64,000 nucleotides of DNA from Strigops habroptila. Taxonomy: Eukaryota > Chordata > Aves > Psittaciformes > Psittacidae. The notes under the pieces are model-generated. The model had not been told where the DNA came from. It ran no database searches and was given only the letters and a program-made list of their open reading frames with translations. Position numbers and translations under genes: made by a program. The stretch lies in assembly GCF_004027225.2 (NCBI RefSeq), contig NC_044296.2, positions 5,141,943 through 5,205,942 on the forward strand, in the 5' to 3' direction. Positions 3,646 through 62,655 of this stretch are shown here, piece after piece (within the stretch, counting starts at the first letter, position 1; each line of letters starts with the position of its first letter).

Positions 3646-5233
3646 GCAGGCTGATGGAGGGGGGAAGCCCAACGGAGCCAGGTCTTGCAATGGCGAGAGC
3701 TGAGGGAGACAGAGCTTGTCCTGGGGATAAAACTGACCCTAACTGAGAGGAATACTGCTGTTAATAATGAACCAGTCGCAAAGTCAAAATACAGGAGGAC
3801 CCTCTCAGAGCACACAGTCATGCCCTGGGGTTCCTGGGAAGGGCTCGACAGCCGAGCACTGAACACTACAGTTGTGACTTGCAGCACAGGGATGGTGCCG
3901 GTACGTGCTTGCTGCCACATCTGCCGGCCCAAGCTGATCGCACCACAGAGCCGCTCAGCACGGGGCTGCTCTTGCAGAGTGCTCTGTGGCACCCTGCAGA
4001 TGCACTGTCTTACTGGAGATGCACTCCCAGAGCACTTGGGTGATGCTACCTTGTGTGGTGCTTATATATCATAGAATCACAGCTCATTTACAGCAACCAG
4101 TTTCCACAGACCAACGTGGTGGAAGCCTCACTCACTGTTCTCATCAGCAGGATGGCAACAATGACCCAAATGGCCTTTGTAAAAGATGCTCATTTTATTT
4201 AAAACAGGAAGTGTTTGATTGCTGGAGACTGATACTGGATTTGTACAGAGTATTGCTGTGAAACCCAGTGATGTGCAAAGCTGAGGAAGGAGCTGATAGT
4301 ACACTTTGGTCAGGTTTATATTGAACTTTAAAAGCTCTTAAAGTTGTTTTGTTTTGGTTTGGGGGTTTTTTTGTTAAAAAAAAGAACAGTAAAAGTGTGT
4401 TCTCTTTGGATTTGTTTACCTTAAAGTCCATGTTTCCATCTTTCAGGAAACTCTTTGTTGTACAGAGACAGTTGCCTTCTCCACATGAACCTCAACTGAA
4501 AACTCGTGTCATCCACCCCGGCACCAGTGTGAGTGTGTGGTAGCGACTGACCTTCCTTTAATCCAAGGTGGCACCCAGCAGAAGAAAATGCTCAGATAAA
4601 GAGGTGAGATAGTTCATCTCCAGCATGTGAAGTGACCGTCGCCTGCATGAGCGGCTTTGGGAGCAACCAGGGCTGCAGCTATGGACACTGGTACGTGAAG
4701 CGTGTTGCCTTAATGGTGAGGGTAACTCTGCTATTTAGTGATGCTGAGATAAGGGCATCTTGGCTCCACAGTCAGCCTCTGTAGTTACACTCCCCTCGCT
4801 CTGGAGACAGACAGGAGTGCAAAAGCTGTGCTCACACTCAGCCGGGAGCAGCTGCTGGGGTCTAACCCTGCCATCCTCTCGGGAAGCCTATTCTGTCTTT
4901 TAAAGGCTTTCAGAAAGCTTTGGTAGAGATGAAGGGCTCTGGTGCCCAGGGGTCTCTGCTGACCCCTATGCTTACGGCTACACACCACTTCTTGCTGGGC
5001 AGGTTGCAGAGGGTCGTTTAGTAAAGGTGGCAAATGCAGTGTCACTGGTTTCTCGAGTTGCCACTGCCCAGCCCAGGCGCACAGGGCATGCTTTGGCCAG
5101 GAATGTCTGCTGTCATCCACCCTGGGCAGTGCGAGGTGCCTGCAGTATTCGAGGTGGTACGTTCCTGCTGTGCCCCTGGCTGGCCCCGGAGGAATGTTCA
5201 GGGGCAGGGTGAGGCACATAGTCCCAAGTTGTC
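3646..5233. other. Intergenic, nothing recognised
   Basis: No gene could be supported here. There is a T- and A-rich stretch at about 4340-4400 (GGGGTTTTTTTGTTAAAAAA). A CATAGAATCAC word at 4069-4079 resembles a CR1 end, but the flanks do not continue the match. Confidence 0.45.
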
Positions 5234-5495
5234 ATAGAATCATAGAATCAAGGAATGGTTTGGGTTGAAGGACCTTAAAGCTCCTCCAGTTCCAACCCCT
5301 GCCACGGGCAGGGACACCTTCCACTAGAGCAGCTTGCTCCAAGCCCCTGTGTCCAACCTGGCCTTGAACACTGCCAGGGATGGGGCAGCCACAGCTTCTC
5401 TGGGAAAAGTCTGTGCCAGCGCCTCAGCACCCTCACAGGGAAGAGCTTCTGCCTCAGAGCTCATCTCAATCTCCCCTCTGGCAGGCTAAAAGGAA
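5234..5495 (-). repeat. CR1 LINE 3' fragment
   Basis: The copy begins with CATAGAATCATAGAATCAAGG, the reverse complement of the CR1 3' repeat, and runs to the GGCAGGCTAAA block. It carries the GGGAAAAGTCTGTGCC form of the diagnostic block and so belongs to the minor lineage also seen at 16448, 41004 and 43822. Confidence 0.92.
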
Positions 5496-15800: not shown

Positions 15801-18800
15801 ACTTGAAGTTTGAAAGCTGGGGTTTGTTGGTTTTGGTTTGGTTTTTATCCTGCCTTACTTTCCCTTTAACTTGATAACATTCTGTGCACCTGACAGGTCT
15901 ATCTCACTGTAGGTCATTCCTCAGACACCTTTGTGGAATGGAATCGCACTTACTGGTGAGAACAGGGCTGCCCATCTCTGCTGCTGGGTAGTACAAGTGA
16001 CAGTGTCATGCTTAATTTAGAGTAGCACTTAATAACTGCCATTCTTGCCATGGTGGGAGAAACCCCACAACTACCTAACATGAATTTCTGTCCTACAAGA
16101 AAACCCTGTTGTGGTGGTTCTTCAGTTCATAGGAAAACAGGGTTTGTGTAAGTGCTTTTGTAGGAAAACCATTAAATAGAGTTATGTAGCTGGTACCTAA
16201 ATGGGTTCTAAAAATGTAACGAGGAATGAGAACCGAGAGCTGAAACCAGACATCTGAGTGGGAAATTTGGCACTAGAGTTTTTCTACAAAGGGAGGGAAT
16301 GGATGATTTAGGACAATAATAATTTGCTTTTAATGTCTTCAATAATTGATGCCTTTGAAAATCTTTCCCCAAAACAATAAGGGTCAGAAAAATACGCAGT
16401 GTTTAATGAAGGTGGTTAGATTAGATGATCTAGTGACCCCTTCTTATCACAGAATCCCGGACTGGTCTGGGTTGGAAGGGACCTTAAAGCTCCTCCAGCT
16501 CCAACCCCTGCCACGGGCAGGGACACCTTCCACTAGAGCAGGTTGCTCCAAGCCCCTGTGTCCAACCTGGCCTTGAACACTGCCAGGGATGGGGCAGCCA
16601 CAGCTTCTCTGGGAAAAGTCTGTGCCAGCGCCTCAGCACCCTCACAGGGAAGAGCTTCTGCCTCAGAGCTCATCTCAATCTCCCCTCTGGCAGGTTAAAG
16701 CCATTCCCCTTGGCCTGTCCCTCCAGGCCCTTGTCCAAAGCCCCTCTCCAGGTTTCCTGTAGCCCCTTTAGGCGCTGGAGCTGCTCTGAGGTCTCCCCTT
16801 CAGGAGCCTTCTCTTCTCCAGGCTGCCCCAGCCCAGCTGATTTATGGATGATGTAGTGATACTGTCAGATTTAGGTGACCTTTAAGAAAGGGGTATGTGG
16901 GTGTGTACAGCAAAACTCCCTTTGCATTATGCTTTATGGTGGGGAAGGAGAAAACCTTTGTCTGTAAAGTTCACATGTGTTCAGAAACTACTGCTGCAAA
17001 GGGCTTTTCCTCCCGATGTACCCCAGTGTGGTAAAAGTACTGGTCTGAAATAGAGATCTGGAGGCAAAAGACAAAGAGCTTTTGGGTATCACTTGTATTG
17101 ATCTCCAAAAGGAAAAAGGAGTGTTTGAAGAACAAGTCCTTTAATTATATGTTACCAGGAACCAGTGGAAACAATCTGGGTAACCGAGATGTAACTGATT
17201 TGGGGATTCATTGCTGGTAAAAACATCCTAGAATGGAACGTTTTCATATTGGTCAGTAATGAGTGTGGTTGGAAAAAAACCCATTGATTTCTCTTTTTAC
17301 AGAAAAACCTGCCATTGCTCCACCTGTCTTTGTATTTCAGAAGGATAAAGCACAGAAGGTAAGGAGATGTTGATATGGATTTCTCTTTGATTTGTTCTGT
17401 AGCCCTAACATTTTCCATGGTGAGCAGCCGTTTGTCTTGTTTTGGAGCTGAAGCTGGATAATAAATCATTGACAGTTTAAATGGTCTTAAGGTGAAGAGG
17501 TAAAGGAGGCCTAAAAGTGGGAAGATGTATGATGGTGGCATGACATGGGTAGCTCTTCAGACAGATGGACCAAATGTTGGGGAAAAAGTATCTTCAAAGC
17601 TGTATCTTGAAGGACTAGGTGGTGAAGGAGTGCTGTGAGTTGCAGTTGCATGGGAAAGCCATAAAACTTCTTCTGATAACAGAATTAAGACAAAGCAAAG
17701 AAAACCATGATCTAAATTATTGCTTTTCACCTCAGTATATTTAATGTACTCATATCTTTGGTTAGTAAGCTGTGAAGTTTCTAATTACCTTGGACAATGG
17801 TCATCCCATTCCCTCCCCTGCCCCTCTCCCCCTGCCATGGGTTCCTGTCCCCCACCTTTGGGTCTGCTGTTGAGGTACGTTGGAGCTGCGCCGTAGTCTG
17901 CTGGGAGGTGTTTCTGTAGGTGAGTGTGTGTTGAACCAAGAGGCTGGTACAGGTCATCCTGTAGCTGCAGAAAGAGTGGAGCTCACGAGGAGTAGAAGAG
18001 CCTCTACTCGGGAGCAGAGCTCAGGAGAGAGTTGAAGGAAGGAGCAGAACCCTCCCTTGAGCAGAAATTGCTATGCAGTTGAAATAGATGGCATGGAAAG
18101 CGATGGTTGTGTGGATGAGTGCAAGATAGTTTGCATTCATTTTTACTTTGAAAGTGGCACACAAAGTGTTATGATGTTAGGGTGCAGTTTTTCTTACTTT
18201 TTGTTTCCAAAGAATAAGCCTTCCAGTTACTTACATTGTAAAAAGGTTTTTAGGCAAAGGAATTGATAAGACTCTTGATAAGAATCTCAACGTATCACAG
18301 TATTTAATTCTGCCTGGTTAATAGTGAAAGCTGTTAACATTTGGGGTGGGAGAATCAAGGTTACCCTTGTTTCAGCTGAAGCTGGTGGAACCAAGAGAAG
18401 TGTATTCCTGTACGTGAGTCACTTTCTGTTGTCTTCTCCAATGTGTGACTAGGAAATATTGCCTCATTCTGCAGGTGGTGGCTTTGCTTTGGAACAAGTA
18501 CCAGGCTCAAGCTTTCTCATGGGTTTCATAGGCATATTTCTCAGCAGGAGCTTGAAATCTTCCATCAGCTTGGAAAGTATTTAAATGTGCTGCTCTTCGA
18601 ATATTAGCTAATAAAATTACATACTTACAAGACATTCCAGTTACGGTTTTTTTTATGGTCACTGTTTACATGTACTTTGGAACAAAAGTAGTGCTGATGC
18701 TAATAGAATCATAGACTGGTTTGGGTTGGAAGGGACCTTAAAGTCCATCCAGTTCCAACCCGCTGCCACAGGGGAGGAGATTCCGTGACCTCTCTGGGCA

Positions 18801-27800: not shown

Positions 27801-30800
27801 TTGATTCTGATAAGAATTGCTGAATCGTGGTCCTCATGTCTCTTGTAAATGCTATGGGAACTCTGTATTTTACATTGCAATGTTTCATGGGCTTAAGAAA
27901 ACAGCATGCAATTGGCAAGAGAAAACTTCTAGGACAATCTAAGTATTTAGAGAACTTCTAGAATTTTCTCATTCCTTATTCCAGTTCTCAGCAGTGGCAC
28001 CAATGGTGTGAATATCCCACCAGATTCCGCAGCCACATCAGAATCACTTAGTAATGCCACGCTGAAGAGTTCTGACTCTGAAGACAAGGTGAGTTGCAGG
28101 AGCATTGGAAAGACACTCAAGGTGACAAGCTTCAAAATAGTATTCCCTGAGCAAAGTCTGTTTGTTTAGTAATGGGAGTGCAGTTACACCAGTGATAGCC
28201 TCCTTCTCTACCCATACCATGGTGGTGCACTTGAGGTGTAGTATTAGATTTTATACTAGTAGTGTACTATTTTTATCTTTACTAAGTGCAACAAAGATTT
28301 ACTGAATGCAGTCTTAGGATGCTTTTTCTTACCTGTTTTCCCTCACAAAATACATTGCTCATTTCTGCTTCTACTGTCATTGTTTCCTTGTAGTCCTTCT
28401 AACTTTGTCTAGTCTTGCTGTAAAATCTTACTGCCACTTGAGAGCAACCTGCTCTACTGGAAGGTGTCCCTGCCCATGGCAGGGCTTTGGGACTGGATGA
28501 GCTTTAGGGTTGCTTCCAGCCCAAACCATTCTATGATTTAGTGCAGTTGAACATTGAAGCAGGCTCCCAAACTGAAAAGGCTTGGGAACATCCTTGGATT
28601 TTTTTTAAGACTTGGCTGTAGGACATCTCAGGTAGCCTGGCAGAGTTTTTGATGCTGCTTTGAGCACAGTTTGGACCAAGTGATTGTTAGAGATCCCCCT
28701 GAACCTCAGCTATTCTGTGATTCATTAAGGAAGATGATTTAAACAACAGGATTTTAAAAGCAAAATTTGTCTTGTAGCTCTGGAGATATTATTACAGGGT
28801 TGTCATTGCAAATGACTGTGTGACTCACAATGTCATAACGTGGCTTTTGTTTGAAGAAACTCAAGGCTAAAGCTTTCCGTTTCTTTTCTTTAGGCAGGAG
28901 AATGTCAGAAAAAAGAATCTAACAACACTTCAGATGATGACAGCTGTGAGAAGGCAGAACTAAATGCACAGCAAGCGTTTGTATTTGGGCAAAACTTAAG
29001 AGATAGAGTTAAGGTACGCATGTGTTTGTTATCTTGACTAAGAGTTGATGTATTTAAGTGAGGATAAGCAGCAGTGGAACAGATCATTTGATGGCACGAG
29101 CATTACGCACAGTTTCTGAAGTACTTTGAAGCCACCCTATATAGCAAGGTTAAAACCTGCATGTATTTAAACAAAATGAGCAGCTGTGAACACAGTTTGG
29201 TTGGCTCTTCAGGAAAACTGTTTTTCCAGACATTTAATAAATCAATTAATACTGTTCATTAGCATAAGAAGCTCACAGGTAACAAGCTCTGTGCAATCTA
29301 TTGTTTTCTCTTACCTTTTCGGTCAGAATTAAGTTGAAATGTGTTCCTAAGTTGCTCCCATGAAACTAAGACTTCACATAAAAGGTGAGAAAAGAAAACC
29401 AGGGCAGCCTGGGTTCAAACCTGTGCGTGGAGCGATTGAGCTGTGTTTTTTGTACCTACTGTTGAAGACAGGGTTGCACGGGTTTCCTGGCATAACAAGA
29501 GCTATACCAGGTCATAGGCTTATATTGCTTTATTGTAGGCAGTGCTTGTGGATGGAAGACTTTGTCTTGGGAAAGCATGAGCTAGAAAGTTTGTGGTCAG
29601 TAGTTTAGACTGACAATATCTCCTTGTTCTGTTCATAGCTGGGGGATGAAAGTGATGAAGCTGCCGACGTGCCCAACGCCGGCCTTCCTACGACAGACAC
29701 ACCTTCTGCAACAAATTACTTCCTACAGTACATCAGTTCCAGGTGAGCCTGCAGGGAAACCTGGAGGACACTTCTTCTGTGTTCAGGATGATTTGTGATT
29801 CTGCTGTTTGGGTGCAGGGCTTATACTGGGTCAGTGGGAACTCAGGCTTCTGGAGAATGAGGTGGCAAACTTCAGATCTGGGGGAACCCTCCATCATATG
29901 GTCAAGGGAGATGCATGTGACACCACTTACTTGACCACAACCTCAGCAAAGCCTCTTCAGAAAACTAACAAGCATAAGATGAGAGAAGTTTTCTCATGAA
30001 TGAATAGAAAGAAACAGTGATGGAGTTAATTGGAGCTACCAGTAGAATCCAGTAGATCTGTGCTTCAGCCTGCTCTAGTGGAAGGTGTCCCTGCCCGTGG
30101 CAGGGGGTTGGAACTGGAGGAGCTTTAAGGTCCCTTCAACCCAAACCATCCCATGATTCTGTGAACAATTCTTTAAGTTTTTTCAGTCTGTAAAATAAAA
30201 AAACCTGTTGTCCTTCCTAAATGGGATTTAAACTCTGTTAATAAAAATGCCACATGGGAGGAGGATGCTTATTCTATAAGGCAGATGCAAGGGCTGAGAT
30301 TTGATTGTGAAACTTCTTGGTGAGCATAGTATTGGAGCTAGTCTAACAAGAGGCATTACTTATCCCTGCTGCCTTTGCTTCAAGTGGCTTAGTTTCAGTT
30401 CTTTTCCTTTCTGAGAAAATTGACCTAAAAACCTGTAGTACTTCACATTTGTGTATGTAGAATACTGCTTAAAAGTACGTTGTGTGATTAAACAACAAGC
30501 CCTCACTTAGCGTTCAGCATGGCTTAATGTGGAACCCTTTAGATACCTAAAGGGAAGTTATTTGCAGTGACAAAACCATTTGCCATCATTCTGAGAGGAT
30601 TCTCACTCTGTAAAACCAGGATGTGCTCTTTGTGTTACTAAATTGTATTCATTTTTGCTGATGTTTGTGTCAACCAGTACTTAAAGCCAGCGACAGTCAC
30701 TCACTTACTGAGGAATTTTATCAGAAGATAAATGGGTATTTTCCTGACTTATAAAACCTATTTTGTTGGGGGGGGGGGGGTTTGTTTGCTTTTGTTCTTT

Positions 30801-46239: not shown

Positions 46240-46500
46240 CTTTGGGCCGGTGGCTTCACCCTGAGGGTTCAGCGATGGGGCAGATAAGGTCCATCAGCCT
46301 CAGCTATAAGGCAGCAGCATGGCCTGTGGTCTCACCTATGGGGCTGTAGTTTTTCCAAGAGCCACCAACTTCAGTTGTGGGGCAGTAGCAAAGCCTGGTG
46401 GTCTCAGCTATGGGGTGGAGGCTTTGGCAGTGGACCCAGTGGCTCTCACTATAAGGCAGTGCCCTGTGTCCCCAGCCAGAGGCTCTGGCTATGGGGACAG
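46240..46500 (+). repeat. Decayed minisatellite upstream of the kelch coding exon
   Basis: About six degenerate units of roughly 35-60 bases each carry a core like CTCAGCTATGGGGCAGTAGC (CTCAGCTATAAGGCAGCAGC, CTCACCTATGGGGCTGTAG, CTCACTATAAGGCAGTG). The units have drifted in both sequence and length. Confidence 0.65.
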
Positions 46501-46536
46501 CACCCTGACCCCGCTCCACGTGTTCCCACAGGCAAG

Positions 46537-49500
46537 ATGTGGGTCGCAGAGGGGCCAGCCCCGGCCCAGTGGAACCTGCGGGACAGGGCCCATGCCCGAC
46601 ACGTCCTGGCCACGGCTGACGACCTCCGCGCCACAGGACAGCTGGTGGACGTGTGCGTGGGCCCAGAGGGTGACATGGCCCATGCTGTGGTCCTGGCCTC
46701 CATCAGCTCCTTCTTCCTTCGCTTCCTGGAGGGCAGGACCAGGGAGCAGCACCAAGGCTCCAAGCCCCATGTTCCCCTGCCCCCTGGGGCCACGCTGTGG
46801 GGCTGGAGGGCCGTGCTTGCCTTCGCTTATGGCGGAACCGTGCCCCATGGCCGGAAGAAGGAGGTGGAGGAGGCTGCCCAGGCACTGGGGGCCCCGCGGG
46901 TGGTGGCCGCCTGTGCCCTGTGCCTGGACGGTGACTCCCAGGAGGGAGGTCCCGAGCCCCTGGAGGAGCAGTGGGAGACGCTCAGAGCCATGGAGCGGCT
47001 CCACGCCAGCGGCCTGGGCTGCGACCTCCAGCTCCAGGCAGGGGACGAGGTCATCTCAGGTGAGCCAGAGGTCCCCCAGGAGGGGCTGAGGAGGGGGACG
47101 GGGCATGGCGGGACAGGCAGGTCCCCTGGCAGGGGTGAGGAGCCCACGTGGCTGGTCCCATGGGGAGAGCTGGGGGTTTGGAGGGGTTGGGGAGGGGGGG
47201 TGTGTGTCCTCTGCTGCCCCCACCACCACCACTCCTCTTCCCCTAGTTCAGCGCCTGGTCCTGAGCTGTTCCTGTGACTTCTTCCGAGCCCTCTTCACTT
47301 GCCCCATGCGAGAGGCCACCCATGACCCCACCGCCCCGCTGGCCACGGGGCTGTCCCCCGCCGAGCTGCGCCTGCTCCTCTCCTTCGCGTACACCGGGGC
47401 TGTGGCTGGGCCGTGGTCCACGGTCCTGGAGGCAGCCGAGACCTCCCTGCGCTACCAGGCATGGGGGCTCCTCACGCTCTGCCTGGATGTTTTCACCCAT
47501 GGCCTGACCCCAGACACTGGCCTGGATGTTCTGGCCTTTGCTGTGGCTTATGGGCTGGCCCAGGTGAGCCGTGTAGCAGAGGACTACATCTTGGCAACCT
47601 TCCCCAGCGTGGTGGCCACACCGGCCTTCCTGGATCTTCCCGCACACCTTCTCATCCGCCTCCTCCGTTCTGATGGTCTCAATGTCCTCCATGAACTGGA
47701 GGCATTGGAAGCAGCATCTCGGTGGCTTACGGCCAATAGAGATGGCCAAGAGGATGTAGCCAAGGAAGTGCTGTCATCCGTTCGCTTCGCCCTCATGTCC
47801 ACCTGGGAGCTGAAGAAGGTCTCATCGGTGACTGCAGGAGTAGCTGACCCAAAGGTCATCCGTGAGCTCATAGTAGCAAGTTTGGCCCCCATGGCCCAGC
47901 TGCCGTGTCGGGTGCGATCCTTGCAAGAGGTGCTGGTGGTTTGTGGTGGAGAAAAGCTGACATCCAACCTGGCTGCCCGGAAGCCCAGCAGACACCTCTG
48001 GTTTGCACATCGCTACCTCAGCACTGTGGGGCTGGTGAAGAAGGTGGAGTGGAGGGCGCTGGGACACTTTCCTGATGGCCCACGCTTCCGCCATGCTATA
48101 GCTGTGGTGGGCAACATTCTCTACATCCTGGGTGGAAAGCACTACTACGGGGTCCATGACACCCTGGCCAGTGTCTACAGGTGAGAGCTACCGAGGACCT
48201 AAAGGTGCTATGTGGCAGCATATGTTGTGGGATCGCAGGAGGTGTTGGTGAAGCTAGAGCTGCGCCATGGACCCAAGGCATTGTGGCATTGCAATTGGTC
48301 AAGTGGCCCCAAGGCATTTGGGGCTTGGTTGGGTGTAGCGCTGGGAGGTGCTCTCCCGCTCTGGGATGCTATAGCTTTTTGGGGGGTAGGGCAGGGAGGG
48401 TCCTACCTGGAGACGCCTCAGGGCATTTTCTGGGTTTGGTGGTGTGCAAGAGGAGGGGATATTCCCATGCAAGGCAACCACATGGCTCCAAGGCATTACG
48501 GAATTGGCTGGTTGTAGGTGGGTTGTTGCCCTCGGTGGTGCCAGCATCACCTCATGGCATTGTAGATAACGGGTTGCCCCTTCACCTCTCAAATGCAGGT
48601 ACCAGCCTCTGGACAATTCCTGGGAGCGCTTGGCCAGCATGACCTGCGGACGGAGCTACTTCCCTGCGGTGGCACTTGGGGATTTCATCTACGCCCTGGG
48701 GGGCAGCTCGGGAGAGCTCTACTGCACAGACACAGTGGAGTGCTATGACCTGACCAACGACACCTGGAGGTGAGACCGCTCCACAGAGACACTTGCTTTT
48801 CTCTACCCTAGGAACCCCTTGCACTGGCCAGTGGTGTCCATTGAGTGGTCTTTGGGCCACTGAGCCTTCAATGGAGAAATGGCCTAAAGTGGCCTTTGGG
48901 AGAGGTCTACTGGCTGTTGAGCAACCATGTCCCTTGGGGGTCATTGGGTGTTGGCCCGTGTCACCTGTTGGGTGATGAATGAGTTGTTGGCCAATAATAT
49001 TCGCTGAAGGTTTGTTGGCCGATAAGACAAATCATTTCCAGCAGTGTTCATTGGGTGTTGGCCAATACTGTCCATTGAGGGAGTCCACTGGGGGTTTTTG
49101 GAGCCTATAAAGCGTTGAAGTGATGTCCCTTGGGCACCCATTATGTGTGAGCTGATGCTGCCCACTGGGGCTCCTTGGTGCTGGCCAGCGCTGCCTGCTG
49201 GGCACGCAATGGAGCAAAGGGAGAACTCCTGGGCAGGCAGTCACCATGGGGCAGCCCTGCTTGACCTGCCCTTCACCCCCTCCCTCTCTCCTCGCCCAGG
49301 AGGTGCCAGCCCCTGCCGATGGCTCTGTGTGGGCACGCGGCGTGTGCCCTGGATGGTGCCCTCTACGTATCAGGGGGGTGTGATGAGGCGTCCCAGTGCC
49401 AGGCGTCCCTCCTGCGCTACGTCCCGGGTGCTCCTGCCAAGCTCCTGGCCCCCATGAATGGCCCCCGAGCCGGGCACATCATGGAGGAGGCGGGGGGGCA

Positions 49501-49876
49501 GCTCTACGTGGCCGGGGGGCTGTGCCAGCGGGCTGGGCAGATGGGCTACAAGGACCAGCTGGCCTTTGAGGTCTACAGCCCCAAGCTGGACATCTGGGTC
49601 CTCCTCAGCCCCCTGCCCCGAGCCCATGTAGTTGGGGGTGCGGCTGTGGTAGGGGGGGAACTGCTCGTACTGGGAGGGTACAGTCATGACACCTACCAGG
49701 ACACCCACTTGATCCATGCCTACCAGCCGGCTGCCCGGCGCTGGATCACTCGCGGCACCTTGCCCCATGCCTATACCGACCTCCAAGCCTGCGTCCTCAC
49801 TGTCCCCCCTGCCTTGCGTGGCCCCAGCTGCCTTGAGGACCCCTTGAGATCACCTGAAACCCCCAATAGTACTTAG
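46537..49876 (+). CDS. KLHL33: Kelch-like protein with tandem BTB units (KLHL33-like)
   Basis: BTB-BACK-kelch proteins usually act as substrate adaptors for CUL3 ubiquitin ligases. Coding exons are 46537-47059, 47247-48180, 48599-48769 and 49300-49876, with GT/AG borders and matching phases (1, 2, 2); 2205 bases, 734 residues. The start MWVAEGPAPAQWN lies just after an acceptor (exon from 46532). A first, diverged BTB-like unit (VDVCVGPEGDMAHAVVLASI, about 35-130) precedes a typical BTB at about 159-265 (CDLQLQAGDEVISVQRLVLS, DFFRALF). BACK lies at about 281-365 (AEDYILATFPSVV). Six kelch-type repeats fill about 403-720 (LYILGGKHYYG, IYALGGSSGE, LYVAGGLCQ, LLVLGGYSHD). The family call is firm. 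The symbol is my best guess from the overall plan and a long N-terminus; another KLHL member is possible. Confidence 0.88.
48190..48590 (+). repeat. Decayed tandem repeat in kelch gene intron 2
   Basis: The core CCCAAGGCATT recurs with drift (ACCCAAGGCATTGTGG, CCCCAAGGCATTTGGGG, CTCAGGGCATTTTCTGG, CTCCAAGGCATTACGG, CTCATGGCATTGTAG), each followed by a TTGGTTGGGTGTAG-like segment. It nearly fills the intron. Confidence 0.6.
48815..49200 (+). repeat. Decayed tandem repeat in kelch gene intron 3
   Basis: Degenerate units are built on CATTGGGTGTTGGCC followed by a variable 15-25 bases, for example TTGTTGGCCAATAATATTCG, TTGTTGGCCGATAAGAC and GTTGGCCAATACTGTCC. The unit differs from those of intron 2 and of the upstream region. 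Confidence 0.65.
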
Positions 49877-51508: not shown

Positions 51509-51514
51509 TTTATT
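51509..51514 (-). terminator. GP1BA: Poly(A) signal, GP1BA
   Basis: TTTATT on the plus strand reads AATAAA on the minus strand, about 355 bases after the GP1BA stop codon. It sets the likely end of a compact 3' UTR. Confidence 0.65.
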
Positions 51515-51867: not shown

Positions 51868-53853
51868 TTACAAGCTGTTGCCAGCGTATTTTACTCTCAC
51901 ATCACCAATGGCCTTGACACCGCTGTCCAGACTGTAAGCAGAAGAGGTCCTCAGGGAGCCGAGGTTTGTGACCATCAGCTTCCTGGAGAAAGACTTGAAT
52001 GAAGCATTCAGAGGACTATGGTGGATACAGAGGTCCTTCGTGGTGCAGAAAGAAGAACTTGCAGGAGGACTGCACCGTATCCCCAGGTCTTTAATTGTGC
52101 AGTAAGTGACCTGAGGGTACAACTCTACTTCTTTGATGGTACAGAACGTGGTGCGCTGGAGGTGGCTTTTGGAGCTGCTGAGGTGCATCGCAGGGCTTCC
52201 TGTTGACTCCCTCAGCAGTAGATACTGAACCTCTTGTGCCTGCAGGGACTTGTGCCAGGAGGGCCATCCCACCAGGCACATCCATGCCAGCCAGCCTGCT
52301 AGGGCCAGCACAGTCAGGACCAGCAGCACCAAGGAGGCCAGGTAGAGCACCCAGTGCAAGAGGCAGCAGTGATTCAGCACCCAGTGCCTACCCTGCAGAC
52401 CATCCTCACCTGCCCATGAGCGCAGCACTGGTACAGCCAGCCCCGGTGTGGAGCAGGGACACAGGGGCAGGGGGGCAGGTGGAGGGGAAGGTGCAGGCAG
52501 CGTGAAGCATGTAGTGTCCAGCGTTGGGGCATGAGTGGTGGAAGCCACCAGTGTGGTTGACATCAGAGGTGGAGATGAAGATGCAGCAACGGAAGAGGCC
52601 TCTATCATGGTAGTAGAAGGCAGAGCCACGGAGGTGGTGGGAAATGTACCAGTGGACACCATTGGAGTTGGCAGTGAGGTGGTGGCTCTGTGCGGGGTGC
52701 TGGCAGGAGCACCAGTGACAATGGTGGCAGTACTGGGGGCCGGTGTGGGTGTGACAGTGGGACTGGCTGGGGCAGGAGTGGTGGTGCTGGGAGCTCTGGG
52801 GTTTGTGGGTGAAGTGCTTGGGGTGCTGAGGGGAGGCCACGTAACAGCACGGGGCATGGTAGTGTGCTCTTTGGGGATGGGTGGATGTTGGGGGGAGAAG
52901 GGGGCCGTGGCAGCTTTCTCTACCGTTTCTTCCCCATCACCATAATAATCTTCCTCCTCCTCTTCATCCCCCACGTTGCCGCAGTTGGGCTTGAAGTGGA
53001 TGATGGGCTTCCCCTGGTGCTCGGCGGGGCTGTGGCACAGCACCCTCTCGGGGGCGACCTCCACCTTTGTCTTCTCCAGGCCCCGCTCCGGCTGGTAGAC
53101 GCTGCCCTCGTTCTGCCAGATCCAGCCCCGCAGGTAGTGCAGGTTGCAGTCGCACTGCCAGGGGTTCTCCGTGAGGAAGACGTACATGAAGATGTGGCCC
53201 TCAGGGAAGAAGTTGGGGGGGAGGCTCTGCAGGCGGTTCCCCGAGAGCCAGAGGGTCTCCAGGTCCTGCAGATCCTGCAGCAGCTCCTTGGGGAGCTTCT
53301 CCAGGAGGTTCTCTGAGATGTCCAAGTCCTTGAGCTCCCTCAGCCCTGCAAAGACATCCTGGGGCAGCGTCCGCAGCCGGTTCCCGCGCAGGTCCAGGTC
53401 TTGCAGACTCGGCACGGCGAGGAAAGCCCTCGGCGCCAGCGTGGCCACGCTGTTGTGTGCCACGGCCAGGCGGGTGAGCGCCGGCAGCCCCTGCAGCACG
53501 GGCAGGGCCCCCAGCGCGTTGTGGGACAGGATCAGCTCCTTCAGGGACGGCAGCGTGGGCCCGGTGTGCAGAGCCACCAGCCCGTTGTCGGACAGGTCGA
53601 GGTCCTGGAGCTGGGCGAGGCGCAGGAAGGTGCTGATGGAGACGGACACCAGGCGGTTGGCACTGAGGAGCAGGATGCCCGTGTCCGCAGGCAGGTCTGG
53701 GGGCACCGTGCTGAGAGCCTGCCCGGTGCAGTTCGCCTCCAGGAGGTCCTTGACCTTGTTCATCTCCACCGGGCAGGGCTGGCCTGGGTCAGAGGCGCCG
53801 GCTGGGGACAGCAGGGCTGGGAGAAGGAGCAGGAGCAGGGCAGGGTCCTGCAT
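51868..53853 (-). CDS. GP1BA: Platelet glycoprotein Ib alpha chain
   Basis: Ligand-binding subunit of the GPIb-IX-V receptor, which binds von Willebrand factor. One uninterrupted coding exon gives 661 residues. I start at the Met at 53853, preceded by an acceptor (TCTCCCCTCCAG/GCCATG), as in the mammalian gene; the in-frame Met at 53886 would lie in the intron. Order: signal peptide (1-20), N-cap, leucine-rich repeats (about 45-220), C-cap (ENPWQCDCNLHYLRGW), acidic DEEEEEDYYGDGEE resembling the sulfotyrosine segment, Thr/Ser/Pro-rich mucin stalk (about 310-470), membrane-proximal Cys pair (496-497) for linkage to GPIb-beta, membrane span (about 501-529), and tail. The C-terminus (RVKYAGNSL) matches the mammalian 14-3-3 binding end (SIRYSGHSL). 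The roughly 130-residue tail is longer than in human and has two ITIM-like motifs and a triplicated motif. Confidence 0.95.
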   Translation of the reverse strand: MQDPALLLLLLPALLSPAGASDPGQPCPVEMNKVKDLLEANCTGQALSTVPPDLPADTGILLLSANRLVSVSISTFLRLAQLQDLDLSDNGLVALHTGPTLPSLKELILSHNALGALPVLQGLPALTRLAVAHNSVATLAPRAFLAVPSLQDLDLRGNRLRTLPQDVFAGLRELKDLDISENLLEKLPKELLQDLQDLETLWLSGNRLQSLPPNFFPEGHIFMYVFLTENPWQCDCNLHYLRGWIWQNEGSVYQPERGLEKTKVEVAPERVLCHSPAEHQGKPIIHFKPNCGNVGDEEEEEDYYGDGEETVEKAATAPFSPQHPPIPKEHTTMPRAVTWPPLSTPSTSPTNPRAPSTTTPAPASPTVTPTPAPSTATIVTGAPASTPHRATTSLPTPMVSTGTFPTTSVALPSTTMIEASSVAASSSPPLMSTTLVASTTHAPTLDTTCFTLPAPSPPPAPLPLCPCSTPGLAVPVLRSWAGEDGLQGRHWVLNHCCLLHWVLYLASLVLLVLTVLALAGWLAWMCLVGWPSWHKSLQAQEVQYLLLRESTGSPAMHLSSSKSHLQRTTFCTIKEVELYPQVTYCTIKDLGIRCSPPASSSFCTTKDLCIHHSPLNASFKSFSRKLMVTNLGSLRTSSAYSLDSGVKAIGDVRVKYAGNSL

Positions 53854-53856
53854 GGC

Positions 53857-56579
53857 CTGGAGGGGAGAGCCGGGAGCCGTGGGCACAGGCAGGAGCGTAC
53901 CTACATGTCACCCTTCTTCCCGCACAAGCACCGCTGCAGAAGCAGTGGCTCTGTGGTGGTCACATCCCCGCATCCCCACACCCACCCCATCCCAGACAAG
54001 CCGTGTGCTGGAGGAGGCTCCCTCAATATCCTTCTACCCAACACCAGCTGTGCCCTCTGCTAGATTTGGGTTCCCAAGGTAGGAGCTTCCCCTGCACAGA
54101 CACGGCTACGCCAAGTGCCTGGCCCCCGATGGATGCTGCTTCCCCAGGACTCACCCATGGACTCTCCAGTGCTTGCTCTGCTGCTGCTTTTCCTCCCGAG
54201 GATCAGGCTCTGCTCTGGTGGCAGCGCTGGTGGTGGGGGCTGGCCTCTATCAGCACACACGGCCACGGGCAGGAACCTGCGGCTTCCTGAGCAGCACAAC
54301 CCACCTCCTGTCATCACTGTCTCCTTGCAGAAGTCTCAGCCATAACCAGCTTCCTCATTTCTTGCTGTGCACAGTGAAGGGGGAGGTTGCACCCCAGGCA
54401 GAGCCCCTGCACCCCACAAGGGGAGCGCCCTTGTTACATCCTGGGAAAAGGGGCCCTTGCACAAATGTCTCCCCTTCCCCTGCTTCAAGGCAAGGCACCT
54501 CTTTCCCAGCACACTCTGGGCTTTGATTCTTGAGGCACCTCAACCTGGGGACGCAGCCTCATTGGCATACCATTATGAAACAGTTCTTGCACAGTACCTC
54601 AGCCAGTTGTTTGTGGTGTAGATGAGGGATCTTTCTGGCTTTGCCAGGAAAAACAGGGATGGCTCTTCTGGAGAGCTGAGAAGCAGCTCTAACACTTGTG
54701 GGAGAAGCCACAGCACAGACCAGGCACGGAGATTAGAGGCAGCGGAAGGAGCTCGGTTTTGCTGTTTCAGCTGAGCTGTCTCTGCTTCCCTGGCCCAGGG
54801 GTCACTGCAGAGCATCTCGGGCCACAGGGCTGGAGGTCACCCAGAAGCTGCAAGGGGAGATGCTACAGAGGAGGGGAGGTTTCCTATTGGTTTTCCATTC
54901 TGTGGATGGTGGTGGCATACAGAGGGCTCAGTCCCATGTGAGCGAAGCATTTCCCTACCTGAAAACCAACCCGAACCGTCCCTCTGCGACCTAGCCTGTC
55001 ACCCGCTTCCTCCTGCACTGCCTCTGCTCTAACCCCAAAGGTGCTGAGTGATTTGGGCACTTCTGGCAATGCCTTTGCTCCAGAAATGTTCTTCTGTTGA
55101 TGTCTCCAGGCTCACCTTCCACAGCTCCACAGCACGGCCTCCTCTGGCAGCTCCCCCCTTGCGGAGAGGATGGATTCTGGCAGCACTTTACATCCCCCAG
55201 GAAGAGCCGCTGGGAAGGAGGGAGGCGACGGGACCCGGATTCCATCCAGAGGCGATGCCGGGGCGGGAGCAAAGCCCAGCACTAGCTTAAAAACTGCTTA
55301 GAATTCCCACCCTGGCTAAGAGGTGAGGCCATGGAGCAGGGTTTGGTCAGGGAAAGCTGCTGCCCTAAGATGTGTCATGAAAGCAGGCCCATGGGGTGCT
55401 CCGTGTGGGTGCACATGGGAGGTAAGAGCATCCGCTCGGGTAAAGGGATCTGAGCAGGGAGCTTGCCAAAAGAGACAATGAGGAAAAGGTGATAAATGAA
55501 GCCTACAGAGACACAGGCCTGGCCAACAGATGATAGCAGAGGTAAGTGTAATAAACGAAGCTCTTCACTCATGACAGTCACAGGGGTATCACAGGCATCA
55601 CTTCAGGAAGCCCAGCTTTTGTGACTGAGGATGCAAAGCTGTGGGGTCCCAGATGCTGGGGGTGTCAGCAGCAGGGGCCGGAGCTGCCCGTGCTGAAGCC
55701 CCCACCATGCCCGTGTGACCACACGACTGAACAGTCCCTGCTGAGCCCATCTGTGCTCGGTGCTGCCTGCCCAGGTCCCCGTCCCAGCCCCAGGCAGTGG
55801 GGCCGTCTGGCTGCAGCTCCCTTCACGCTCTGCTTTATTTTGTGCTTGAGCTGGTGGCTTTCAGAGCAATGTGACAAAGCCACCACCCAGGGTCCCTGCA
55901 AGCAGGGATGAGGCCATCACGCCAGGCACATGAAAAGCTGCCAGGAGCAGAGAAGTGAGATGCAAAGCCCAGCGTGTGCTGCTCCCCTCATTTACCAGAG
56001 GGAAATGTCTCCACCCTGAAACCCATTGGCAGCACGACAGATCCGGGCAAGCAGCTCCCACATGGAGCCAGGCCTCCTCCCTCATCACATCTGGACCCCC
56101 AGAGCATGGCCACTGGTCTGTGACTGGTGTCCTCCTGCGACATCCCACTGGGCTGGAGGTGCACGTGGTGCCATCGAACATCCTGCTGCAGGAAGATACA
56201 GCCTCTTCCCGGCTCTTATCACCCACCGGCAGCTGCCTGAGGGAGGGGAGATGCAGCAGGTCTGCTCAGGGCACTGGAGGGACTCCCACATCCAAGTGCT
56301 GGATGAGGTCACACGCCACCAGCAGCGTCACGGCTTGGGAAGCGGTCACCAAGAGGAGGGGAGGTGGAAGCTCTGGTCCCCCGCTCAGAGAGGAGAAGGT
56401 GCCAGACCCCGGCCTTGCTCCCCAGGCCATCCAGCCCCTTCGGACTGACATTTGCTCCATCAAACAAGCTGGAAGTGCTGTGTGAGCCCAGCCCAGCCAT
56501 GAGGAGATCAGGGCTGTGGAGAGCAGACTGAAGACCTTCAAACCCATCCAAACTCTCCTTTCCTGGAGTCAGCCTGCAG
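53857..56579. other. GP1BA upstream region and spacer
   Basis: The non-coding first exon and promoter of GP1BA should lie in the left part of this stretch on the minus strand. Good donors in that direction include those near 54152 and 55114, but I cannot choose between them. A donor-like CCTGCAG/GTAAGT at 56579/56580 on the plus strand may end a leader exon of the SPRY gene. I see no coding exon with family resemblance. Confidence 0.4.
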
Positions 56580-56726: not shown

Positions 56727-57932
56727 ATGGAGAGAGAAGAGAATGAGACCCTGCCCAGTGAGGTGGAGGAGATGAGTGGAAGAGGTGAGTTTTCAGAAGG
56801 GAAAAGGAGGGGGAACTGTCCTCTGTTGAGGAGAAAAATGCATCCTGCTTCTTTGTGGAAGATCTATTTAGGATCAGAGCACGTGGGGCTTGTCCCAGCC
56901 TGGGTTTGCCATGGGGTTGAGACTTGGTGGCTGCAACACCCCACAGCTGAATTCCTCATGCTTATATGTAGACCCACCACCAACACCAAAGACACCTGAG
57001 CTGCATCTTTGGCTTTCTCCATTTCCTACAGGAAAAAATGGGAATTTGGGGCTGTGAGTTTTGGGGTAATGTTGTCCACAGTCTGCACTAGTTTGTGCCC
57101 AGGTGCGCAGCACTAGAGACACCCAAGTTCAGGTCCACGTATCTACAGGGCAGATGTGCACCCATCCACTCAGGTGCACCCTCCTCCAGGACACCGAGGT
57201 CTCCTTGGCCAGGGATTGCATGGAAGCTCCTGGATCAGGAGCAGGATCAGGGCACCACTGAGGCTGGGGCAGTCCAGCATTTGTGGGTTTCCCACCCCAC
57301 GCTGGACATCTCTGGCAAGGGGAAAGAAATCGCTGTGTCTCTTCTCTTGCTGGGGTGGATGCAGCCCCTGGGGCTGCCTGTCCTGAGCATCTTCTCCTCC
57401 TCTGTCCCCAGCCAACGTGACCCTGGACCTGGACACCGCCAACCCCTTCCTCATCCTGGCTGGTGACCAGCGAGGCGTGGGCCGTGGGGACGAGTGGACC
57501 TCGGTGCCCGACAGCGCCGAGCGGTTCGACACGGAGCCGTGTGTGCTGGGCAGCCAGGGCTTCGCGATGGGGAGGCACTGCTGGGCCGTGGAGGTGGCCG
57601 AGGGGGGCGACTGGTGGGCTCTGGGGGTGGCCCGGGAGTCTGTCAGGAGGAAAGGGGTCCTCAGCTTTACCCCCCAGGAGGGCATCTGGGCCGTGGGGCA
57701 GTGGTTTGGACAATACTATGCTTTCACTGAGCCTGACTGGACTCCCCTGCACCTCCCCTGCCTCCCCAGGGCCATCCAGGTCTGCCTGGACTTCACGGAC
57801 AGGCAGGTGGCATTTGCTGATGCTGAAAACAAAGCCCCAGTCTTCGCTTTCTGCCTGGATCCGTGTCCTGGGGAGAAGCTACGCCCCTGGCTCTGGGTGG
57901 GGATGGGCTCCTGGCTCCAGCTGTGTCCCTGA
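56727..57932 (+). CDS. PRY-SPRY (B30.2) domain protein, TRIM/butyrophilin-like
   Basis: B30.2 domains are ligand-recognition modules at the C-terminus of TRIM ligases, butyrophilins and relatives. The model has exon 56727-56784 (or a longer upstream exon) joined to 57412-57932; phases match (1/1) and the total is 579 bases, 192 residues. The Met at 56727 has a good context (AGGATGG) and lies right after an acceptor-like CCAG. The last exon holds a full PRY-SPRY: NVTLDLDTANPFLI, a GRHCWAVEV core, WWALGVARESV, GIWAV, and IQVCLDFTDRQVAFADA. No RING, B-box, coiled coil, Ig or membrane segment was found upstream. It may be a SPRY-only gene, the end of a TRIM-like gene with exons I missed, or a relic. 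The B30.2 call is firm; the gene model is not. Confidence 0.7.
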
Positions 57933-61901: not shown

Positions 61902-62048
61902 CTGGGGAGGACAACGTGGCAGGATGGTCACCAAACCCCGGTCCCGGGGCTGGAGCTGTAGAGACACAGTCACCCATCCACTCTCTGTGTATTCCTTGCC
62001 AATCCATCAGCATCCCCAGCCAAAGGAGGCAGCACTGAAACGGTTTTC

Positions 62049-62655
62049 ATAGAATCATGGAATTTGGGTTGGAAGGGACCTTAAAGCTCCTCCAGCTCCA
62101 ACCCCTGCCACGGGCAGGGACACCTTCCACTGGAGCAGGTTGCTCCAAGCCCCTGTGTCCAACCTGGCCTTGAACACTGCCAGGGATGGGGCAGCCACAG
62201 CTTCTCTGGGCACCCTGTGCCAGCGCCTCAGCACCCTCACAGGGAAAAGCTTCTGCCTCAGAGCTCATCTCAATCTCCCCTCTGGCAGGTTAAAGCCATT
62301 CCCCTTGGCCTGTCCCTCCATTCCTTGTCCAAAGCCCCTCTCCAGGTTTCCTGGAGCCCCTTTAGGCCCTGGAGCTGCTCTAAGGTCTCCCCTTCAGGAG
62401 CCTTCTCTTCTCCAGGCTGCCCCAGCCCAGCTCTCTCAGCCTGGCTCCAGAGCAGAGCTGCTCCAGCCCTCGCAGCAGCTCCGGGGCCTCCTCTGGCCTC
62501 GCTCCAGCAGCTCCACGTCCCTCTTGTGCTGTTGCCCCAGAGCTGGATCAGGGCTGCAGGGGGGGCTCCCCAGAGCGCAGCAGAGGGGCAGGATCCCCTC
62601 CCTGAGCTGCTGCTCACGCTCTGGGGGTGCTCCCAGCACACAGTGGGGGGGTCTG
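62049..62655 (-). repeat. CR1 LINE, 5'-truncated copy (3' end)
   Basis: Antisense copy of about 605 bases from CATAGAATCATGGAATTTGG to the GGTGCTCCCAGCACACAG block. It is the inverted partner of the copy at 346-944 and carries the GGGCACCCTGTGCC diagnostic block. It lies in the last intron of MARCHF2, in sense with that gene. Confidence 0.93.

Follow-up and report, generated by a model that had tools for sequence, protein, structure and literature searches.

GPIb-alpha binds von Willebrand factor (VWF) outside the cell and docks 14-3-3 at its phosphorylated C terminus. The published 14-3-3 sites of the human protein are Ser609 and Ser587/Ser590 (PMC4284388; Ser609 also in PMC3382782), its Cys484/485 bond GPIb-beta, and its contacts with filamin include Phe568 and Trp570 (PMC4284388). 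Ligands of filamin bind by beta-strand addition in the C-D groove of its Ig repeats (PMC2654154). In the strand of FilGAP, EQFFSTFGELTVEP, the residues facing the groove occupy every second place (Phe726, Thr728, Gly730, Leu732, and Val734); the Phe, Leu, and Val are common to FilGAP and the human GPIb-alpha strand, the latter having Ser in the place of Thr, and filamin binding by FilGAP is disrupted by the G730W substitution and unaffected by T728V (PMC2654154). A phosphorylation switch between filamin and 14-3-3 is described for Thr758 of integrin beta-2, which lies inside the filamin-binding strand (PMC5882645). Among receptors of thrombocytes, chicken TREM-B1, with one ITSM and two ITIMs, is tyrosine phosphorylated, SHP-2 recruitment was shown for its whole tail in a transfected line, and cross-linking of the receptor lowers thrombocyte degranulation (PMC4788293). 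For GPIb-alpha of bird, crocodile, and turtle, a 2015 report describes proteins without a cytoplasmic domain, following BLASTp and tBLASTn searches with human probes at an e-value threshold of 1e-6; it proposes that the missing tails could contribute to the prolonged bleeding of birds and to their lack of tight thrombocyte aggregates, and it regards a GPIb-V-IX receptor with full function as an innovation of placental mammals (PMC4486697).

We analyzed a 64-kb stretch of kakapo DNA (the window), in which an uninterrupted GP1BA reading frame occupies positions 51868-53886 of the minus strand, its first ATG, at 53853, giving a protein of 661 aa. The gene and its main parts are as follows.

51868..53853, minus strand: GP1BA coding sequence, a single open frame of 661 aa plus stop
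52363..52368, minus strand: Cys-Cys pair just outside the membrane helix (aa 496-497, from the translation)
52270..52350, minus strand: single membrane helix (aa 502-528, from the hydropathy peak and AlphaFold2)
51871..52263, minus strand: cytoplasmic tail (aa 531-661, 131 residues, from the translation), low-confidence and probably disordered in AlphaFold2
51871..51951, minus strand: final 27 residues, homologous without gaps to the 14-3-3 region at the human C terminus (from alignment and blastp)
51509..51514, minus strand: AATAAA polyadenylation-type signal, about 350 bases beyond the stop

A search of the PDB recovered GPIb-alpha chains as 11 of the 12 best matches (E = 2.6e-47 to 1.8e-44; seen among the best 60 of 428 matches). 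The region responsible is a leucine-rich repeat (LRR) ectodomain of the GPIb-alpha type, which leads to human GPIb-alpha chains (best E = 2.6e-47) and has LRR matches in Pfam too. It is followed by the other hallmarks of GPIb-alpha, namely, a Ser/Thr/Pro-rich, mucin-like stem before the helix (identified by eye in the translation), a Cys-Cys pair that resembles human Cys484/485 (a correspondence likewise drawn by eye), and one membrane helix. AlphaFold2, run on the helix and tail as a single sequence, places the helix at aa 502-528 with block means of pLDDT of 95, 96, and 82 and gives the tail block means of 30 to 48 with scattered strands; because of this low confidence, we make no structural claim on the repeat units described below. 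The 500 bases 5' of the ATG hold one GATA-type site and seven GGAA/TTCC sites and were uninformative.

The surroundings of the gene can be described briefly. A KLHL33-like gene (46288-49876, plus strand; Pfam BTB, BACK, and Kelch) stands tail-to-tail with GP1BA. In humans, KLHL33 is on 14q and GP1BA is on 17p, so the neighborhood seems to be different. Upstream of GP1BA, a PRY-SPRY exon (57387-57932, plus strand; Pfam E = 2.4e-19 and 4.3e-12) may be the final exon of a gene of the TRIM or butyrophilin type. A scan for an octamer that we take to be the end motif of CR1 elements gave six matches with two or fewer mismatches, two of them overlapping, against 0.11 expected, which is consistent with a sauropsid genome, of a bird or a related animal.

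5233-5256, 18702-18717, 28528-28543, 30148-30163, and 62048-62063: CR1-type octamer ends (pattern scan)

The G+C content is lower from 12001 to 40000 (0.42 to 0.47) than at the richer ends (0.48 to 0.62); 10 of the 18 frames of at least 110 aa starting in that part were compared with Pfam and gave zero matches, and Rfam had no match anywhere in the window.

The homology of the tail to its human counterpart is carried by its last 27 residues, RTSSAYSLDSGVKAIGDVRVKYAGNSL, which align ungapped with the C terminus of the human tail (sequence verified with chain a of PDB 8wfs). When the human tail was compared with the bird protein by blastp, the best match consisted of the last 27 residues of both, reaching both C termini, at an E value of 0.009 or 0.020 depending on the setting, and within the tail this was the sole match. 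The score of the local alignment of the two tails was reached by 0.1% of 2,000 shuffles (0.15% with softer gaps), and comparisons anchored at the C terminus, at six lengths, were matched by 0 to 2 of 50,000 random draws. As compared here, the bird tail is the longer (131 versus 100 residues) and the richer in tyrosine (five versus one), and the two receptors have in common the single-pass LRR architecture, the Cys-Cys pair before the helix, and the C-terminal 14-3-3 region. General searches added nothing to this picture: the tail alone had no match in Pfam, and helix plus tail had none in the PDB up to an E value of 10. The tail alone brought up three mitochondrial UPS1 sequences in the PDB (E = 1.3 to 1.4), which we took as chance. 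Pattern scans for relatives of the helix and tail gave 5 matches in viral contigs and 26 in contigs of prokaryote genomes, none of either set confirmed; given the collections, these scans address contaminating DNA only. From sequence comparison, we consider it nearly certain that the locus encodes a full homologous tail. The gene would specify a complete sauropsid, probably bird, GPIb-alpha with a signaling tail of the mammalian kind.

Within the aligned C termini, bird Ser638, Ser641, and Ser660 correspond to human Ser587, Ser590, and Ser609, and the residues identical in the bird are human Arg584, Ser587, Ser590, Tyr605, Ser609, and Leu610. The bird protein thus has, at the aligned positions, the Ser609-Leu610 and Ser587/Ser590 elements of a GPIb-alpha-type 14-3-3 ligand; in the terminal stretch (KYAGNSL in the bird, RYSGHSL in human), human Ser606 is replaced by Ala. 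The tail is predicted, with good confidence, to dock 14-3-3 at its C terminus. The first-pass annotation of this DNA had implied a contrast with the 14-3-3 signaling of human GPIb-alpha, which falls for the bird gene because all three published 14-3-3 serines are kept. A fourth tail tyrosine, Tyr640 (51934-51936, minus strand; SSAYSLDSG), lies between the serines aligned to Ser587 and Ser590, in the place of human Leu589; once phosphorylated, it could disturb a 14-3-3 site of the Ser587/Ser590 type.

As read from its sequence, the locus contradicts the published absence of the tail in at least one such animal. The human tail, used as a tblastn query against the 64-kb window, missed the bird tail even at an E value of 10, and in blastp it reaches the bird tail at an E value of about 0.01, short of 1e-6 (with the tail, rather than the full human protein, as the query). 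A divergent tail would therefore look absent in a search of that kind.

Further features of the tail are listed here.

52213..52230, minus strand: VQYLLL, ITIM-like and YxxPhi-like motif 1, with Tyr544 (pattern match)
52093..52110, minus strand: VTYCTI, ITIM-like motif 2, with Tyr584 (pattern match), the first six residues of repeat unit 2
52111..52152, minus strand: repeat unit 1, TTFCTIKEVELYPQ, with Phe at the position equivalent to Tyr584 (repeat scan)
52069..52110, minus strand: repeat unit 2, VTYCTIKDLGIRCS, with Tyr584 (repeat scan)
52015..52056, minus strand: repeat unit 3, SSFCTTKDLCIHHS, with Phe at the position equivalent to Tyr584 (repeat scan)

The two motifs had been singled out earlier as a pair of inhibitory docking sites for phosphatases, and much of that description stands. 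VQYLLL and VTYCTI are present with the numbering (from the ATG at 53853) and the spacing claimed; both fit [SIVL]xYxx[ILV], and no other stretch of the reading frame does, even when T is allowed at -2; both lie on the cytosolic side of the single span, following the AlphaFold2 helix in a protein whose ectodomain is the GPIb-alpha LRR; and the human tail, with one Tyr and no consensus motif, indeed has no such pair. The interval assigned to the pair, 52102..52230, is right at its end, but its start cuts VTYCTI at the Tyr codon, so the pair spans 52093-52230. When the 131-residue tail was shuffled 100,000 times, at least two consensus matches arose in 4.7% of the trials, a figure that precedes the choice of motif and protein; as the reader was free in both choices, the pair is suggestive at most and goes only weakly beyond chance.

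VTYCTI proved to be the beginning of the middle copy of a three-fold repeat, the divergent copies of which read TTFCTIKEVEL, VTYCTIKDLGI, and SSFCTTKDLCI. For none of the three lengths tried did any of 500 shuffles score as high as the best set of three copies. Across the seven core codons, each pair of copies differs by two or three silent and two or three replacement changes, from which the copies are probably old, with a Cys-Thr-x-Lys-acid core that has been kept. The aromatic position runs Phe, Tyr, Phe (TTC, TAC, TTC) through units 1 to 3, so that within the gene it is Phe in two of the three copies; Tyr584 is therefore a variant at a site whose aromatic character is kept, and this speaks against the tyrosine as the reason for the motif.

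We tentatively interpret the central part of the tail as a three-strand array of the filamin type, [ST][FY]CT[IT]K[DE][LV]x[LI], although we place this reading somewhat below an even chance. Every unit would supply one strand to an Ig repeat of filamin, where human GPIb-alpha supplies a single strand in all; the receptor might thereby grip the actin skeleton several times over, and VTYCTI would be the middle strand with Tyr for Phe rather than an ITIM kept for phosphatase docking. At the groove places, the units (F-C-T-I-K-E-V-E-L, Y-C-T-I-K-D-L-G-I, and F-C-T-T-K-D-L-C-I) have Phe/Tyr, Thr, Lys, Leu/Val, and Leu/Ile; they share with the FilGAP strand the spacing Phe-x-Thr-x-x-Glu-Leu-x-Val, with an acid before the Leu place in all three (PMC2654154), and all three show the alternation F-x-[ST]-x-x-x-L-x-V in a loosened form. 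That form, [FY]x[ST]xxx[LIV]x[LIV], is matched in the 661-residue protein by the three units and nowhere else; the human tail matches it once, at its established filamin site. Among 20,000 shuffled tails, 8.8% had at least one match and 0.005% had three, figures to be read with the pattern having been loosened and picked with the units already in view and with the copies not being independent. The position also agrees roughly (tail residues 40-80 for the units, 53-61 for the human filamin site).

Similarity to individual filamin ligands is modest or absent. The units are the three tail 9-mers that score best against the FilGAP strand (14, 14, and 12), but two 9-mers of the ectodomain score 13; the best 9-mer score was reached by 775 of 5,000 shuffles and the summed score was reached by 352 of 5,000. 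With the human GPIb-alpha filamin peptide (22 residues; PMC5484675 and PDB 2bp3), the best 9-mer score was reached by 4,485 of 5,000 shuffles, and a separate alignment gave a P value of 0.72; thus, neither known peptide is significantly similar to the tail. Human Phe568 and Trp570 have no counterpart in the units. The Lys of the units, unproven as a groove residue, occupies the place of FilGAP Gly730, the site of the disruptive G730W, and the shared Thr says little because T728V was without effect. FilGAP further differs in being another protein with a single copy and with Gly where the bird units have Lys, its similarity to them lying within the reach of shuffles. The bird tail differs from mammalian GPIb-alpha in having three repeated units, without the Phe568/Trp570 pair, against one filamin strand in human. 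We also considered a different filamin site, SFKSFSRKLMVTN (tail residues 88-100), whose 9-mer FKSFSRKLM tied for fourth against FilGAP and came second on the summed score, which leaves it a candidate. Taken as a whole, the explanation that combines the full tail, 14-3-3 docking, and the filamin-type array appears to us evenly poised between right and wrong.

That the units are a real repeat with a partner other than filamin, or a mere spacer, the tyrosine pair being incidental, is a possibility that we take seriously while judging it to fall clearly short of even. The clarity of the repeat beside its modest or absent similarity to known filamin strands speaks for it, whereas the kept residues are spaced like the published groove positions, and the units sit roughly where the human filamin site is.

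A trafficking role, in which the AP-2 mu chain would recognize YLLL and YCTI and the receptor would thereby be internalized or sorted, strikes us as unlikely, even though it is compatible with the filamin-array explanation. YLLL, YCTI, and also YPQV fit the YxxPhi pattern, the human tail has no match, and Tyr544 stands 16 residues from the helix, a usual distance for such signals. Against this, the pattern is very permissive, and both sister copies have Phe in place of Tyr584. VQYLLL itself is left unexplained, being either chance or a YxxPhi trafficking signal.

Still less probable is the original proposal, by which Src-family kinases would phosphorylate Tyr544 and Tyr584 upon VWF binding and the paired SH2 domains of SHP-2/SHP-1 would be recruited, damping thrombocyte activation. 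Both motifs fit the consensus, and kin motifs work elsewhere (human TLT-1, VTYATV; chicken TREM-B1, VMYVNI and VEYATL; PMC4788293). The TREM-B1 precedent in thrombocytes makes a dual ITIM in GP1BA possible, with nothing specific in its favor: TREM-B1 and TLT-1 share the VxYxx[IVL]-type tyrosine motifs in the tail, and TREM-B1 shares the cell type, but these are Ig-like receptors, and phosphorylation and SHP-2 recruitment are results for TREM-B1 (PMC4788293). The frequency of equally good shuffled tails and the Phe in both sister copies leave selection of the pair as phosphatase docking sites unsupported. Passages of a review describe activating GPIb signals, and its text has zero occurrences of ITIM or SHP (PMC8976409). 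Among the matches listed from the open-license literature, no title or abstract opening was recognized as dealing with ITIMs in GPIb-alpha or with a bird GPIb-alpha tail, except for PMC4486697, which reports the tail as absent. A filamin-type strand array seems likelier than a dual ITIM.

Least probable of all, and in our view hardly to be expected, is an anchor that grips filamin at several points and contains a tyrosine switch, in which phospho-Tyr584 would break one grip and form, with Tyr544, an SH2 (SHP-2) dock while the C terminus keeps 14-3-3; it would share with integrin beta-2 the idea of a phosphorylatable residue in a filamin strand choosing the partner, hypothetical for the bird tail, with Thr and 14-3-3 there and Tyr and an SH2 phosphatase here (PMC5882645), and, if true, it would make shear-loaded adhesion and inhibition mutually exclusive in nucleated thrombocytes.

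If other birds agree with this locus, the explanation of bird bleeding by a missing tail would fall. The question would then no longer be whether a tail is present but in what way its central part tunes adhesion under shear, with one filamin strand in mammals set against three repeated units here.
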